DNA from: Alishewanella aestuarii B11
GTDB taxonomy: Bacteria; Pseudomonadota; Gammaproteobacteria; Enterobacterales; Alteromonadaceae
Length of the DNA stretch: 64,000 nt
Direction of reading: 5' to 3'
Assembly (NCBI RefSeq): GCF_000280055.1
Contig: NZ_ALAB01000042.1
Span: 1-64,000 of the forward strand
The notes under the pieces: model-generated
The model's input: the letters and a program-made list of their open reading frames with translations, nothing else
Databases searched by the model: none
Told to the model about the DNA's origin: nothing
Position numbers and translations under genes: made by a program
Shown here: positions 50,233 through 55,534 of the stretch, piece by piece
Layout of the letters: every line of letters begins with the position of its first letter
Position numbering within the stretch: the first letter of the stretch is position 1

Positions 50233-51852
50233 ATGAAACAGGATTTTATTCTGCCGGATATCGGTGAAGGTATCGTCGAGTGCGAAATCGTCGAGTGGCT
50301 GGTCAAAGAAGGCGATGTGATTAAAGAAGATCAGCCGGTTTGTGATGTGATGACCGACAAAGCCCTGGTGCAAATTCCGGCGGTGTATGATGGCGTGGTC
50401 AGCAAGCTGTATTACGCCAAAGGCGATATTGCTAAGGTACATGCGCCATTATTTGAGATGGAAGTGGCTGGTGGTGCAGCTTCCGCACCGGCTGCAGCTT
50501 CGGCTGCCACTTCGGGGTCAGATCATGATCTGACCCCGAAGATCAGCGAAATTACTGAAGACTTTATCCTGCCGGATATCGGTGAAGGTATTGTGGAGTG
50601 TGAAATCGTTGACTGGCTGGTCGCGGAAGGCGATACCATCGCAGAAGATCAGCCGGTCTGTGATGTGATGACCGACAAAGCGCTGGTGCAAATCCCGGCC
50701 AAATATGCCGGTGTGGTCAGTAAGCTGTACTATGCCAAGGGCGATATTGCCAAGGTGCATGCACCGCTGTTTGCGATTCGCCGCCAGGGAGATGTAACTG
50801 CGGCAGCGCCGGTCGCTTCGGGGTCAGATCATGATCTGACCCCGAAGGTTACCGCCACTGCCGCAAGACCTGCTGCCGGTGATAGTGCAGCGGCGAAAGG
50901 CAGCAAAGCCTTAGCCAGCCCGGCCGTGCGCCGTCTGGCCCGTGAGCTGGGTGTCGATTTACAATGGGTGCCAGGCTCGGGCGATAAAGGCCGGGTTTAT
51001 AAAGAGGATGTGCGCGCCTTTGCCCAAGGCACCCCTGTTGCCGCTGTTAGTGCGCCGGCCGCTAAACCGGTCGCCGCGACAAGCACAGCTGTCGTTAGCA
51101 GTGCGGATCATGATCTGACCCCGAAGGTTCAGGACGCCAAACCGGCAACCAACCGGGTTGAACCTATTCGTGGCATTAAAGCGGCGATGGCACGGCAGAT
51201 GGCCGAATCTGTATCGACCATTCCGCACTTTACGTATTGCGAAGAAATCGATTTAACCGATCTGATTGCGCTGCGGCTACAACTTAAAGATCAGTATGCC
51301 AAACAGGGCGTGAAGCTGACGATGATGCCGTTCTTTATGAAGGCGTTGTCGCTGGCGATTAACGAGTTCCCGGTGATGAACAGTCAGCCGAATGCCGACT
51401 GTACTGAACTGACTTATTTTAGCGCCCATAATATCGGCGTCGCGGTGGACTCGAAAATTGGCTTGTTGGTACCTAATGTCAAAGGCTGTGAGCAAAAGTC
51501 CATTCTGGAAATTGCTGCCGAGTTGACCCGTTTAACCGATGCCGCGCGCGAAGGACGGGTAAGTCCGGCCGATCTGAAAGGCGGCACCATTACCATCAGT
51601 AATATCGGTGCTATTGGTGGTAATGTGGCGACCCCCATTATCAATAAGCCGGAAGTGGCGATCGTGGCACTGGGTAAGGTACAAGCCTTACCACGCTTTG
51701 CTGCCAACGGCCAGGTTGTGGCGCGGCAGCTGATGCAGGTGAGCTGGTCTGGTGATCACCGTATTATTGATGGTGGCACCATTGCCCGCTTTACCAATCT
51801 GTGGAAGCAATATCTGGAGCAGCCAAGCAGTATGTTGTTGTCGCTGCGCTAA
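50233..51852 (+). CDS. bkdB: Dihydrolipoamide acyltransferase E2 of the bkd complex, with palindrome-encoded linkers
   Basis: The 539-residue E2 core has two near-identical lipoyl domains (about 1-77 and 109-183; lipoyl lysines K43 and K149 in MTDKALV). A peripheral E1/E3-binding domain follows (about 228-262, ALASPAVRRLARELGVDL), then the catalytic domain with SWSGDHRIIDGGTIARF. The inter-domain linkers contain SGSDHDLTPK at 94-103 and 196-205 and SADHDLTPK at 290-298. Each is encoded by a copy of a palindromic DNA repeat. The E3 (lpd) gene is not present, so the general E3 is presumably used. A further palindrome copy begins at the stop codon. Confidence 0.95.
   Translation: MKQDFILPDIGEGIVECEIVEWLVKEGDVIKEDQPVCDVMTDKALVQIPAVYDGVVSKLYYAKGDIAKVHAPLFEMEVAGGAASAPAAASAATSGSDHDLTPKISEITEDFILPDIGEGIVECEIVDWLVAEGDTIAEDQPVCDVMTDKALVQIPAKYAGVVSKLYYAKGDIAKVHAPLFAIRRQGDVTAAAPVASGSDHDLTPKVTATAARPAAGDSAAAKGSKALASPAVRRLARELGVDLQWVPGSGDKGRVYKEDVRAFAQGTPVAAVSAPAAKPVAATSTAVVSSADHDLTPKVQDAKPATNRVEPIRGIKAAMARQMAESVSTIPHFTYCEEIDLTDLIALRLQLKDQYAKQGVKLTMMPFFMKALSLAINEFPVMNSQPNADCTELTYFSAHNIGVAVDSKIGLLVPNVKGCEQKSILEIAAELTRLTDAAREGRVSPADLKGGTITISNIGAIGGNVATPIINKPEVAIVALGKVQALPRFAANGQVVARQLMQVSWSGDHRIIDGGTIARFTNLWKQYLEQPSSMLLSLR
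50510..50541. repeat. Palindromic element copy 1, inside bkdB
   Basis: This is a perfect 32-bp palindrome: CTTCGGGGTCAGATCA followed directly by its reverse complement. It sits in the linker after the first lipoyl domain and is translated as SGSDHDLTPK. Because it is a palindrome, either orientation would encode the same peptide in this frame. Confidence 0.95.
50816..50847. repeat. Palindromic element copy 2, inside bkdB
   Basis: This copy is identical over 32 bp to the one at 50510 and exactly 306 bp (102 codons) away, the same spacing as the two lipoyl domains. It lies after the second lipoyl domain and is translated in the same frame. Confidence 0.95.
51106..51126. repeat. Palindromic element copy 3, degenerate left arm, inside bkdB
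   Basis: The core GATCATGATC and the complete right arm (through CCCCGAAG) are intact, but the left arm has decayed. It encodes ADHDLTPK in the linker before the catalytic domain. Confidence 0.88.
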
Positions 51853-51889
51853 ACCTTCGGGGGCAGATCATGATCTGACCCCGAAGGTT
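51852..51889. repeat. Palindromic element copy 4, at the bkdB stop codon
   Basis: The element has one mismatch (T to G at 51863) and is extended by AAC/GTT at its ends to a 38-bp imperfect palindrome. It begins at the last base of the TAA. The hairpin could end or stabilise the bkd transcript. Confidence 0.92.
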
Positions 51890-51920
51890 CTATAACGCTC
51901 CCATCCTTAAAGGAATAAAG

Positions 51921-52409
51921 ATGAAACAACTAAGCTTGCTGCTTTGCGCAGTAATAACGCTCAGTGCCTGCCAAACTACAACCCAACCTAGCCCGGATGC
52001 GCGTTTCGCTAATCTGCCGGTAACCAAGCAACCGCACGCTAGTGGCCTTTTTAGAGATTTAGCCAGATTAGGACCGAGGTACCCGGTGGAAGAGGCGAGA
52101 GCCGGTGGTGAAGGCTGTGCCACTATTGAGTATGTTGTGACACCAGATTATCAGCTGCATGACGTGGTTACCCTGGATGCCTCAAACCGCTTTTTTGCCC
52201 GTGAAGCCAAGGCGGCGATCCTAAAGTGGCAATGGCAGCAACTGCCAGCCGGCTTATTAACTGAGCCGGTAAAATTGCAAACCCGCTTTGAGTTCTGTCT
52301 GGAAACGGTTGAGGGACGTTGCGACCCTGAACAACTCAATGCCCGCACCCAGTGTCGCGGTGACGATATGTTGCCTGCCGTAGGCTACCGAGTATTGGTT
52401 CGCAGCTAA
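51921..52409 (+). CDS. Lipoprotein with TonB C-terminal-like domain
   Basis: The 162-residue precursor has a lipoprotein signal (MKQLSLLLCAVITLSACQ, lipobox LSAC). A TonB_C-like fold follows, with EGCATIEYVVTPDYQLHDVVTLDASNRFFAREAKAAILKWQWQQLP. Such small TonB-domain lipoproteins are not true energy transducers because they lack the inner-membrane helix. Four Cys in the last 40 residues may form disulfides. It has its own site (AAAGGAATAAAG). A complete palindromic element lies just before it and a half copy just after. Confidence 0.75.
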   Translation: MKQLSLLLCAVITLSACQTTTQPSPDARFANLPVTKQPHASGLFRDLARLGPRYPVEEARAGGEGCATIEYVVTPDYQLHDVVTLDASNRFFAREAKAAILKWQWQQLPAGLLTEPVKLQTRFEFCLETVEGRCDPEQLNARTQCRGDDMLPAVGYRVLVRS

Positions 52410-52417
52410 CGTTGAAA

Positions 52418-52440
52418 CTTCGGGGTCAGATCATGATCTG
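52418..52440. repeat. Palindromic element copy 5, right arm truncated
   Basis: The left arm CTTCGGGGTCAGATCA and the core are intact to 52440. The rest of the right arm has been replaced by the start of a different hairpin. Confidence 0.9.
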
Positions 52441-52471: not shown

Positions 52472-55400
52472 TTAATACTGCCGTTTTAAAACCTTATCGC
52501 CCAGTACCAACAACGCCGGGGTTAAAAATAGTGTCAGTAGGGTAGCAAAGCTTAAACCGCCGGCGATGGCACTGGATAATTGCGTCCACCACATGGTGGA
52601 GGGCGCACCAAAACCCAGGCTGGGCTCCAGCAAATTAACATTGACTGCCAGCACCATCGGCATTAACCCCAGCACAGTGGTAACAGAGGTTAGTAATACC
52701 GGGCGTAAGCGCAAGGTGCCTGTTTCCAGCGCAGCCTCGATACTGTTTAGCCCTTGTTGCCGCAGTTGGTTATAGGTATCAATCAAGACGATATTATTGT
52801 TTACCACGATACCCGCCAGCCCGATAATCCCCATCCCCACCATGACGATACCAAAGGGCTGAGCATTAACGAGTAATCCCAGCAAGACACCGGCCGTGGA
52901 GAGTACGATAGCCGACAGGATCAGCAGCGTTTGATACCAGCTATTAAATTGCACCAGTAAAATCATCAACATCAAAAATATTGCAATAAAGAACGCGCTG
53001 ATTAAAAAGTTCATTGCTTCCTGCTGATCGGCATCTTCACCGGCAGTTTTGATCATAACCCCCTCAGGCAGGACCAGGCCACTGCCGCGCAGTGCCGCCA
53101 GCCGCTCTGCTACCTGATAGCCGGGAGCGAGATCGCTTTTAATGGTAACGGCGCGGTTACTGTCAATCCGCCGGATCACACTGGTTTTCTCGCCGGGTTC
53201 TAAGCTAACGAAGTTGGTGAGTGGTACCTGACCGCGCGGTGTTTCTACGGTTAAACGCTCAAGCTGGGCTAACGAGCGCCAGTTTGCCGGAAAGCGCACC
53301 CGGATATCCACTTCATCACTGGCATACTCCGGGCGAAACTTCGCCAGCAGCAGGCCATTGCTGACCAGTTGGATCGCATTACCTACTGTCAGCACATCGG
53401 CGCCAAAACGGGCGGCTTCTGCACGATCAACGGTTAGCCGCCATTCAATGCCAGGTAAACTGCGATCATCTTCAATATCGATAAAGCCACCAAGTTGCTG
53501 CATCCGGGCCAGGATCTGGTTAACAGCAGCGTCAATCTGGCTGCTGTCTTCGGCACTAACTTGCAGCTCTATCGGCTTGCCACCGGCCGGGCCTTCCTGT
53601 TGCTGGCGAAATGCCAGGACCAGGCCGGGCAGGTCAGCGGTGCGCTCGCGCATCTCATCCAGGATCACCGCAGCGCGGCGGCGCTGGTGCCAGTCGATAA
53701 ACTGAAACTGGATAGTACCAATCACATCTGCGGTTAGCTCGCCACTGGCAGCAGCCAGACTGCGGGCATAGAGGGCTTTGACTTCCGGCATGCCGAGCAA
53801 GCGTTGTTCGACCTGACGCAGGATGGCATCTTTTTCATAGATCGACAGATCGCCGCGGGCCCGCACCCATACCTGTGCCGACTCCGGCTCGACGGAGGGG
53901 AAAAACTCCAGGCCATGGTTAAACTTGCCATAGGCCAGGTAGATCAGCACCACACCGCTTAAGGCTGCGCAGAGTGTTAACAACGGGCGTTGGATCAAGC
54001 GGCCGAGGATGCGGCGATAGAGCAGGGTATAGCGGCTGGCGCGGTTTGGCGCGGGCGCGCGCTGGGGCGCTTTATGGCTGGCGGCGCCCATTACCGGTAA
54101 AAATACCAATGCCATGGCCAGTGACGCCAGCAAACAGAGGATCACGGTCGCGGGTAAATACAACATAAACTGGCCGACAATACCGGGCCAGAATAGCAGC
54201 GGTACAAACACGGCCAGTGTGGTAAAGGTAGACGCAATAATGGGCCAGCTCATCCGATCGGCGGCATTAAGCCAGGCGTCTTTTGGTGTCTGGCCGTCCT
54301 GAATATGGCGATCAGCCAGCTCACTGACTACGATAGCGCCATCGACCAGCATGCCGGCTACCAGGATCAGCGAGAACAGCACGATAATATTCATCGTAAA
54401 GCCGAGCAGCCAAATCAGCAGGATCCCGGCAAAAAATGCACCTGGGATGGTAATGCCAACAAGTAGCGCCGAGCGCATGCCCATGGTGGCGAGGATCAAA
54501 ATTAACACCAGCACCACCGCGGTCAGCACATTATTCAATAAGTCAGATAACATCTCTTTGACGTCTTTTGACTGATCCATAATGTAATCAATTTGCATTC
54601 CGGGCGGAAACTGGCGCTCTGCCTGTGCAAGCAAGGCCTTGGTTTGCTCGATGGCTGAGATAATATTCGCGCCACTGCGCTTTTTCACTTCCAGTACCAG
54701 GGCCGGCTGACCATTAATGCGGGCGAAACTAAGCGGATCTTTAAAGCCGGCATTGACGGTAGCGACATCGGCAAAGGTGAGCACGGTATCGCCACTGACT
54801 TTGATTGGGATCGACAGCACATCATTCAGATCTTCAATTATACCCGGCACTTTAATGGCCATCCGGCCGGCACCGGTATCTAAACTGCCGGCGGCAACCA
54901 GACGGTTATTATTCGATACCAAACGAAACAGCTGCTGATAATCCAGGCCATAGCTTTGCAACACTTGCGGATCGACGATGATCTCCAGCACATCTTCCCG
55001 ATCGCCACCAATATCGACCTCCAGAATTTCCGGGATGGCTTCAATTTGTTCCTTTAAGCGCCGGGCGATCCCTACCAGCACCGACTCCGGAACCGGGCCG
55101 GACAGACCTATAGATAATACCGGAAACAGCGCCACGTTAATTTCCTTAACGGTGGGTTCCTTCGCTTCGGCTGGCAGTTTAGCGCGCGCAGCGTCCACTT
55201 TCACCCGCACATCGGCCAGTGCCTTATCGGCATTAAAGCCGGCATCAAACTCCAGCATCACCGAGGCATGGCCCTCACTGGCGACCGAGGTCATTTTCTT
55301 AATGCCTTCCAGTGAACGCAACTCGTGCTCCATCGGCCGAACCAGCAAGCGTTCACCGTCTTCCGGACTGATGCCGTCCAGTGACATCGACACATACATC

Positions 55401-55534
55401 ATTGGGATGGCGACATCGGGGTTGGCTTCTTTCGGGATCACCAGATAGGCACTGATACCAGCGATAAATAAAAACAGTAGCAGCATCAGGCTGGCACGGC
55501 TGCGTTGAATAGCGGCAGCGATCAGGCTTCTCAT
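52472..55534 (-). CDS. RND efflux pump permease
   Basis: This 1020-residue inner-membrane proton antiporter of the AcrB/HAE1-like superfamily has the expected 12 helices in two repeats and two large periplasmic loops. TM1 is near 16-34. The TM4 motif is VAGMLVDGAIVVSELADRH, with a single Asp where many pumps have Asp-Asp; this variant recurs in a known subgroup. The second repeat has GIAGIVVNNNIVLIDTYNQ. The adaptor gene precedes it with an ATGA overlap. No outer-membrane factor gene is adjacent, so the pump must borrow a TolC-like channel. Confidence 0.95.
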   Translation of the reverse strand: MRSLIAAAIQRSRASLMLLLFLFIAGISAYLVIPKEANPDVAIPMMYVSMSLDGISPEDGERLLVRPMEHELRSLEGIKKMTSVASEGHASVMLEFDAGFNADKALADVRVKVDAARAKLPAEAKEPTVKEINVALFPVLSIGLSGPVPESVLVGIARRLKEQIEAIPEILEVDIGGDREDVLEIIVDPQVLQSYGLDYQQLFRLVSNNNRLVAAGSLDTGAGRMAIKVPGIIEDLNDVLSIPIKVSGDTVLTFADVATVNAGFKDPLSFARINGQPALVLEVKKRSGANIISAIEQTKALLAQAERQFPPGMQIDYIMDQSKDVKEMLSDLLNNVLTAVVLVLILILATMGMRSALLVGITIPGAFFAGILLIWLLGFTMNIIVLFSLILVAGMLVDGAIVVSELADRHIQDGQTPKDAWLNAADRMSWPIIASTFTTLAVFVPLLFWPGIVGQFMLYLPATVILCLLASLAMALVFLPVMGAASHKAPQRAPAPNRASRYTLLYRRILGRLIQRPLLTLCAALSGVVLIYLAYGKFNHGLEFFPSVEPESAQVWVRARGDLSIYEKDAILRQVEQRLLGMPEVKALYARSLAAASGELTADVIGTIQFQFIDWHQRRRAAVILDEMRERTADLPGLVLAFRQQQEGPAGGKPIELQVSAEDSSQIDAAVNQILARMQQLGGFIDIEDDRSLPGIEWRLTVDRAEAARFGADVLTVGNAIQLVSNGLLLAKFRPEYASDEVDIRVRFPANWRSLAQLERLTVETPRGQVPLTNFVSLEPGEKTSVIRRIDSNRAVTIKSDLAPGYQVAERLAALRGSGLVLPEGVMIKTAGEDADQQEAMNFLISAFFIAIFLMLMILLVQFNSWYQTLLILSAIVLSTAGVLLGLLVNAQPFGIVMVGMGIIGLAGIVVNNNIVLIDTYNQLRQQGLNSIEAALETGTLRLRPVLLTSVTTVLGLMPMVLAVNVNLLEPSLGFGAPSTMWWTQLSSAIAGGLSFATLLTLFLTPALLVLGDKVLKRQY

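Follow-up and report, generated by a model that had tools for sequence, protein, structure and literature searches.

The gene bkdB of Alishewanella aestuarii B11, assigned to the E2 component of a branched-chain 2-oxoacid dehydrogenase, carries in each of its three inter-domain linkers a translated copy of a short palindromic DNA repeat, with two further, non-coding copies lying downstream. On balance, this repeat was probably seeded at the bkd locus by an element of the TIRYT type and then spread locally into permissive linkers of BkdB. As such, the locus would offer a small, clear case of mobile-type DNA having become protein, unusual in that the repeat has stayed at one locus.

The window considered here corresponds to the whole stretch of 64,000 nucleotides that was analysed, with the features of interest being listed in Table 1. 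The naming of bkdB rests on its domains and its neighbours, with Pfam recognizing two lipoyl stretches, an E3-binding domain and a 2-oxoacid dehydrogenase acyltransferase domain in the product. Copies 1-3 are in frame, one in each of the three inter-domain linkers of the protein. Long linkers are usual in the E2 family and those of BkdB are flexible, to judge from their composition and from general knowledge of E2 proteins.

Table 1. Palindrome copies and surrounding genes in the window.
Feature	Position	Strand	Description
bkdB	50233..51852	+	539 aa; E2 of branched-chain 2-oxoacid dehydrogenase, host of copies 1-3
Copy 1	50510..50541		Perfect palindrome of 32 bp in linker 1 of bkdB, which joins the lipoyl domains; translated SGSDHDLTPK
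Copy 2	50816..50847		Perfect palindrome of 32 bp in linker 2 of bkdB, which joins lipoyl 2 and the E3-binding domain; translated SGSDHDLTPK
Copy 3	51106..51129	-	Half copy GATCATGATCTGACCCCGAAGGTT in bkdB linker 3, translated ADHDLTPKV
Copy 4	51852..51889		Palindrome of 38 bp, one position mismatched, sharing the final base of the bkdB stop codon
TonB_C-domain gene	51921..52409	+	Between copies 4 and 5; start read as lipoprotein-like
Copy 5	52418..52440	+	Half copy in the gap where the TonB_C-domain and RND genes converge
RND (ACR_tran) gene	52472..55534	-	Convergent; 3' end is the boundary of the palindrome-bearing interval

The perfect 32-bp palindrome CTTCGGGGTCAGATCATGATCTGACCCCGAAG is found unchanged as copies 1 and 2 and, with one mismatch, at 51855-51886, with no match being obtained in any of 100 shuffled sequences. 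With up to three mismatches allowed, the 17-mer half of the palindrome gave eight matches, as compared with 0.06 expected, and revealed the half copies, on the minus strand at 51106-51122 and on the plus strand at 52422-52438. An earlier note on this DNA had claimed two perfect palindromes, three linker copies in the same frame, a 38-bp imperfect palindrome at the bkdB stop codon and a half copy after the next gene, all of which were borne out. The mismatch in copy 4 is a T-to-G change, and the AACC with which this copy begins takes its first letter from the end of the stop codon (position 51852); a perfect counterpart is found at the same place in A. agri (G004). For copy 5, genome G016 has a half copy at the corresponding position with matching surroundings, and A. 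agri has a full palindrome in this gap. In these same two genomes, the gap directly 3' of bkdB also contains, respectively, a group II intron (Rfam; L112:6209-7997 in G016) and an ORF of 442 codons that appears transposase-like by reading alone (C1:439206-440534, L110, in A. agri).

Of the three reading frames of the palindrome, the one encoding SGSDHDLTPK alone is open, TGA being present in the other two. Because the palindrome is its own reverse complement, this single open frame holds for both orientations of an insertion and, because the other two frames contain TGA, the common frame of the coding copies is no separate coincidence. Survival would be expected to leave just such a common frame.

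In the 3.59-Mb genome containing the window (G000), the palindrome was found nowhere outside bkd when up to three mismatches were allowed. The genome-wide mobile repeat envisaged in the earlier note was thus not sustained, this absence being an outcome that the note itself had named as counting against its reading, and a genome-wide REP population was rejected, the palindromes being at the bkd locus only. The 17-nt head of the palindrome does occur outside bkd, namely in the RAYT island of this same genome. At the same threshold, 31 genomes of the genus contained 13 palindromes in four genomes, with three in A. aestuarii, two in A. agri, one in A. longhuensis (G023) and seven in A. tabrizica (G010). 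All 13 fall within the stretch from the first bkdB linker to the 3' terminus of the convergent RND gene, eight within bkdB and five in gene gaps, and the interval bearing them measures at most 4.7 kb in each of the four carriers. A 24-mer is exact in nine of the 13. G016 presents a half copy only, in the bkd-RND gap. The exact 14-base arm TTCGGGGTCAGATC gave 49 matches in 12 of the 31 genomes, 26 of these at the bkd locus, where it is absent from 26 genomes; the reversed control pattern gave no matches in the 31 genomes. An exact scan of genome contigs of 84,980 species, from which the records of the window's own genome were possibly excluded, returned five stretches on three contigs, belonging to A. 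tabrizica, A. longhuensis and A. agri. The exact scan of viral contigs returned no palindromes, and a viral source was rejected on this basis. Because two further E2-type genes of the window's genome contain no copy at up to three mismatches, the location of the palindromes calls for more than permissive linkers.

The earlier note had also anticipated sister bkdB linkers with and without the insert. Indeed, the closest relatives, A. agri (93% identity) and G016 (91%), lack the segment in all three linkers. Among 39 BkdB homologues, that of the window included, the SDHDLTPK peptide is found in three, with three copies in A. aestuarii, five in A. tabrizica and one in A. longhuensis. It is found in none of the eight homologues from outside the genus, and conservation across distant genera, considered in the earlier note, was thus not seen. 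Compared with homologues lacking it, the segment in linker 3 of the window's bkdB is a clean in-frame gain, this linker being 42 nt longer than in A. agri and G016; in linkers 1 and 2 the palindrome replaces linker DNA of similar length, and differences from the sisters in linker 1 reach beyond the palindrome.

In a tree built from bkdA2 and bkdB codons, the carriers fell into two well supported groups, namely A. aestuarii with A. agri and G016, and A. tabrizica with A. longhuensis, and the node joining the two groups without G019 had a support of 0.13. Agreement between the two carrier groups at 4-fold sites is 38-58%. Because an exact 24-mer in nine of 13 copies exceeds neutral vertical descent, constraint, exchange or re-copying must act. 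Linkers 1 and 2 are occupied in A. aestuarii and A. tabrizica and unoccupied in A. agri, G016 and A. longhuensis, corresponding to two gains, or to one gain and two losses. The identical DNA of coding and non-coding copies, together with the lack of the peptide in 36 of 39 homologues, supports the view that the segments would have originated as DNA rather than as selected protein.

As to the TnpA-REP gene that the earlier note had proposed be sought in the same genome, one Y1_Tnp gene (236 aa) is present, in an island on contig C2, with its best NCBIfam model being that of REP-associated tyrosine transposase, at 79.1 bits just under the cut-off of 80. The island contains ATCTGACCCCGAAGGTT 12 times, and the reverse complement of ATCTGACCCCGAAGGTT is AACCTTCGGGGTCAGAT, the arm of the bkd palindrome. 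A RAYT locus of A. longhuensis holds nine copies of AACCTTCGGGGTCAGAT, and in G020, TTCGGGGTCAGATC flanks a RAYT gene on both sides in direct orientation. At the level of sequence, a relationship of the bkd arm to RAYT-associated repeats is thereby supported. Among the five species with bkd copies, the AACCTTCGGGGTCAGAT head is found at a RAYT gene in A. aestuarii and A. longhuensis only, no such head lying within 1 kb of the Y1 genes examined in A. agri, G016 and A. tabrizica. The bkd palindrome itself never flanks a transposase gene, all 13 examples (up to three mismatches) being at bkd.

The placement of the motif GGGTCAG was surveyed around 30 of 58 Y1 matches, mostly the best match per genome, L107 being set aside since it corresponds to the latter half of the L081 gene. 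Peaks were obtained at -200..-101 (34 occurrences) and +600..+799 (29), with no other 100-bp bin exceeding four. The motif was present at -260..-40 in 23 of the 26 loci having a Y1 match of at least 300 nt, with L080, L100 and L101 lacking it there, as did the four partial Y1 genes. At these 26 full-length loci, GGGTCAG lies on both sides in 14, upstream only in nine and on neither side in three; at the RAYT of the window's genome, it is on the upstream side only. An inverted arrangement is possible in 12 of the 14 two-sided loci, the other two (L094 and L116) being direct only, and the copies flanking the RAYT genes of G020 and G001 are direct rather than inverted.

The C2 island (C2:285400-296200 of G000; L115:1400-12300) comprises toxin-antitoxin-type modules and the sole Y1 gene of the genome, with an adjoining pilin-like gene; a pilin-like gene likewise adjoins the RAYT of G020 (L116). 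Throughout the 19.9 kb of L115, ATCTGACCCCGAAGGTT is confined to one strand (12 vs 0) and AAGGTT is strongly skewed (44 vs 2). At positions 295199-295393 and 296077-296160, the island contains tandem 5'-shortened pieces, every one ending in AAGGTT, with one end fixed and the other variable, as in one-ended insertion. By eye, L116:5700-5850 of G020 repeats the 3' end of the adjoining RAYT gene in a 5'-truncated form, ending at the same CCCCGAAGGTT. Integron attC sites were considered as the origin of the arm and rejected, the bases following GGTT in the island being, by eye, unlike what we take to be the attC pattern. Eight other RAYT loci (L083, L084, L086, L089, L096, L099, L105 and L106) have GGTCAGGTCTTGC in common in their flanks in a 9-mer comparison, and the open frames of five of these are of 286-321 codons. 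Long-form RAYTs are a subclass for which a lack of REP-like flanks has been reported, and GGTCAGGTCTTGC may possibly represent their terminal repeats.

Dimers of GGGGTCAG, sought as exact pairs with any centre of 4-34 bases, are also found elsewhere. Besides those at bkd, 25 were identified in the genus, one of them in the window's genome (C1:21023, with a different centre), nine in G018 and five in G011. Of these 25, 22 lie outside all ORFs of at least 80 aa, and 18 of the 22 have an ORF of 100 aa or more no further than 30 bases away; at bkd, the palindromes inside a gene number eight of 13. The dimers L130 and L132, representing one site in two species, are overlapped by an ORF of 115 codons that starts at the element, and dimer L135 lies in an ORF of 219 codons, before its VTT domain, the start of this ORF being uncertain. 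The nine sites in G018 correspond to dispersed palindromes of 44-50 bp with GGGGTCAG ends, two of which flank a Y1 gene at 964016. The G018 palindromes are a REPIN-like population of the TIRYT kind.

In the scenario that we consider somewhat more probable than not, the palindrome would be a short dimer of the GGGGTCAG-headed terminal-repeat motif of RAYT/TIRYT-type Y1 genes of the Alishewanella/Rheinheimera group. Seeding by a TIRYT-type element, at the end of bkdB and in the convergent gap between bkd and the RND gene, would have taken place in the ancestry of the five species; this step is inferred, as is the subsequent short-range copying. From there, copies would have reached the BkdB linkers across distances of hundreds to a few thousand bases, and three species carry them in these linkers today. 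Survivors would be those linker insertions in the sole open frame, yielding the SDHDLTPK segments of the enzyme. The linker copies could have arisen through hairpin-provoked template switching or through a Y1 enzyme acting at short range on single-stranded DNA. Nearness to existing copies would explain the place of the insertions, and either process would give such nearness. In A. tabrizica and A. longhuensis, composite copies are seen by eye, consisting of the palindrome and, after it, an additional piece that terminates in GGTT. Their likeness, again by eye, to the tandem 5'-shortened pieces in the island on C2 is in favour of a common process. Against this scenario, the palindrome is at no second locus in any genome and, because of this, mobility is not directly seen. 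Also weighing against it are the lack of the AACCTTCGGGGTCAGAT head at the Y1 genes examined in three of the five species, the upstream-only GGGTCAG at the RAYT of A. aestuarii and the direct copies in G020 and G001, the replacement of linker DNA in linkers 1 and 2, the choice between gain and loss in these linkers, the low support for the union of the two carrier groups, and the exactness of the 24-mer.

The same confinement speaks against ordinary, REPIN-like transposition of a TIRYT-type dimer throughout the genome, with all copies lost except those at bkd. The dispersal of related GGGGTCAG dimers in the genus, including those of G018 and G011 and the one on C1, is in line with such transposition, yet the four carrier genomes have no further copy at up to three mismatches, and loss everywhere but in an interval of at most 4.7 kb in each carrier would be unlikely; this explanation is accordingly regarded as improbable. 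Nor are the linker copies likely to be old, or to have been exchanged between species by recombination of bkdB alleles, with the sisters having lost or rewritten them, although such a history deserves some weight given that A. aestuarii and A. tabrizica are occupied in all three linkers at similar places and that the 24-mer is so often exact despite diverged 4-fold sites. The A. longhuensis copy, however, lies at a different point of linker 3, linker 2 of A. agri and G016 is, by eye, nearer to the palindrome-free linker 2 of A. longhuensis, and the A. aestuarii linker flanks outside the palindromes match those of A. agri, not A. tabrizica.

A hairpin with a selected role in DNA or RNA, be it as an mRNA 3'-end hairpin, a regulator site or a cause of ribosome pausing at domain boundaries, was likewise judged rather unlikely. 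RNA folding of copies 1, 2 and 4 is strong, at -25.7 (z -6.25), -26.0 (z -6.37) and -26.1 kcal/mol (z -6.30), respectively, the sequence is exact across diverged species and the non-coding copies lie directly 3' of bkdB and in the convergent gap, all of which would suit selection for a hairpin. Yet the folding of copies 3 and 5 does not surpass that of shuffles, copy number varies from the one half copy of G016 to the seven palindromes of A. tabrizica, and most of the genus (26 of 31 genomes) is without the exact arm at bkd. Moreover, no run of T follows copy 4, and GGGGTCAG occurs in the window solely in the five copies, with none upstream of bkd, leading to the rejection of an upstream operator. 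A combined version, in which a hairpin element was copied over short range to enzyme domain boundaries and kept there as mRNA or DNA punctuation, e.g., for ribosome pausing, is given only a slight chance. Least credible of all is that SDHDLTPK represents conserved protein sequence selected for E2 function. Although the peptide is in each linker of two species, its restriction to three of 39 homologues and none of the eight outside the genus, together with the identical DNA outside genes, speaks against this, and protein-level conservation was rejected on the peptide counts.

If local spread of a TIRYT-type dimer did occur, the bkd locus would serve as a natural experiment in the short-range copying of transposase-linked palindromes, separable from genome-wide transposition, given that every palindrome in the four genomes lies within an interval of at most 4.7 kb. 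It would also illustrate a permissive route from non-coding repeat to protein, involving one open frame and tolerant linkers, with insert-free sisters for comparison. Were the punctuation reading true, a transposase-type repeat would now be both linker peptide and folding signal.

Comparison with known repeat classes, based on excerpts of the sources cited, points to TIRYT genes, the terminal repeats of which have GGGGWSAS in common, can be dimers and can recur (PMC3733652). GGGGTCAG, present in each intact bkd arm, fits this consensus, and the TIRYT repeats flank Y1 HUH transposase genes, some at a roughly equal distance from the gene, and are also found elsewhere as dimers or clusters (PMC3733652). 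By contrast to TIRtron repeats, the bkd dimer is a perfect palindrome, at one locus and partly translated (PMC3733652). The tags that mark the REP super-families, GTAG and CGTC (PMC3733652), are both absent from the 38-bp unit. As such, that part of the REP/RAYT likeness drawn in the earlier note that concerns kinship to RAYT-associated repeats held, and the REP tags gave way to the TIRYT consensus; judged by its motifs, the bkd palindrome is a TIR-type dimer and not a GTAG-type REP. In the excerpt of PMC6006769, no REP-like flanks were found for RAYT subclasses 2.1 and 2.3, the former probably corresponding to TIRYT.

REPs and REPINs, like the bkd copies, occur as inverted pairs, near gene ends and between convergent genes, in-frame REP insertions have already been published, along with the proposal that flexible linkers or loops accommodate them without harm, and double insertions in one gene are known (PMC3733652, PMC6006769, PMC3116915). 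The intragenic cases described involve GTAG and CGTC repeats, and most such repeats sit after genes and between convergent genes (PMC3733652). The non-coding bkd copies lie at these usual sites, suggesting that they came first. The hairpin-forming inverted pair typical of REPINs is present in copies 1, 2 and 4, but the many dispersed extragenic copies typical of REPs were not seen. Unlike REPs and REPINs, the bkd unit is without GTAG or CGTC, is of few copies at one locus and has one gene carrying several copies across all of its linkers. The likeness to Rickettsia palindromic elements raised in the earlier note is supported, in that these too are palindromic repeats in frame within protein-encoding genes, although they are of about 150 bp and found in many unrelated genes, as opposed to 32-38 bp and one gene here (PMC10969869). 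PARCELs are also palindromic coding repeats with signs of mobility, but correspond to a tandem repeat motif of 25 residues, with many found in proteins with membrane-targeting sequences (PMC2996958). A search of the open-access literature combining Alishewanella, repeat and transposase found nothing, and the matches listed there for the motif strings concerned, by title, unrelated subjects. What appears to be new here is a TIRYT-type dimer bound to one locus, in multiple sites of one enzyme, with sister species lacking it.
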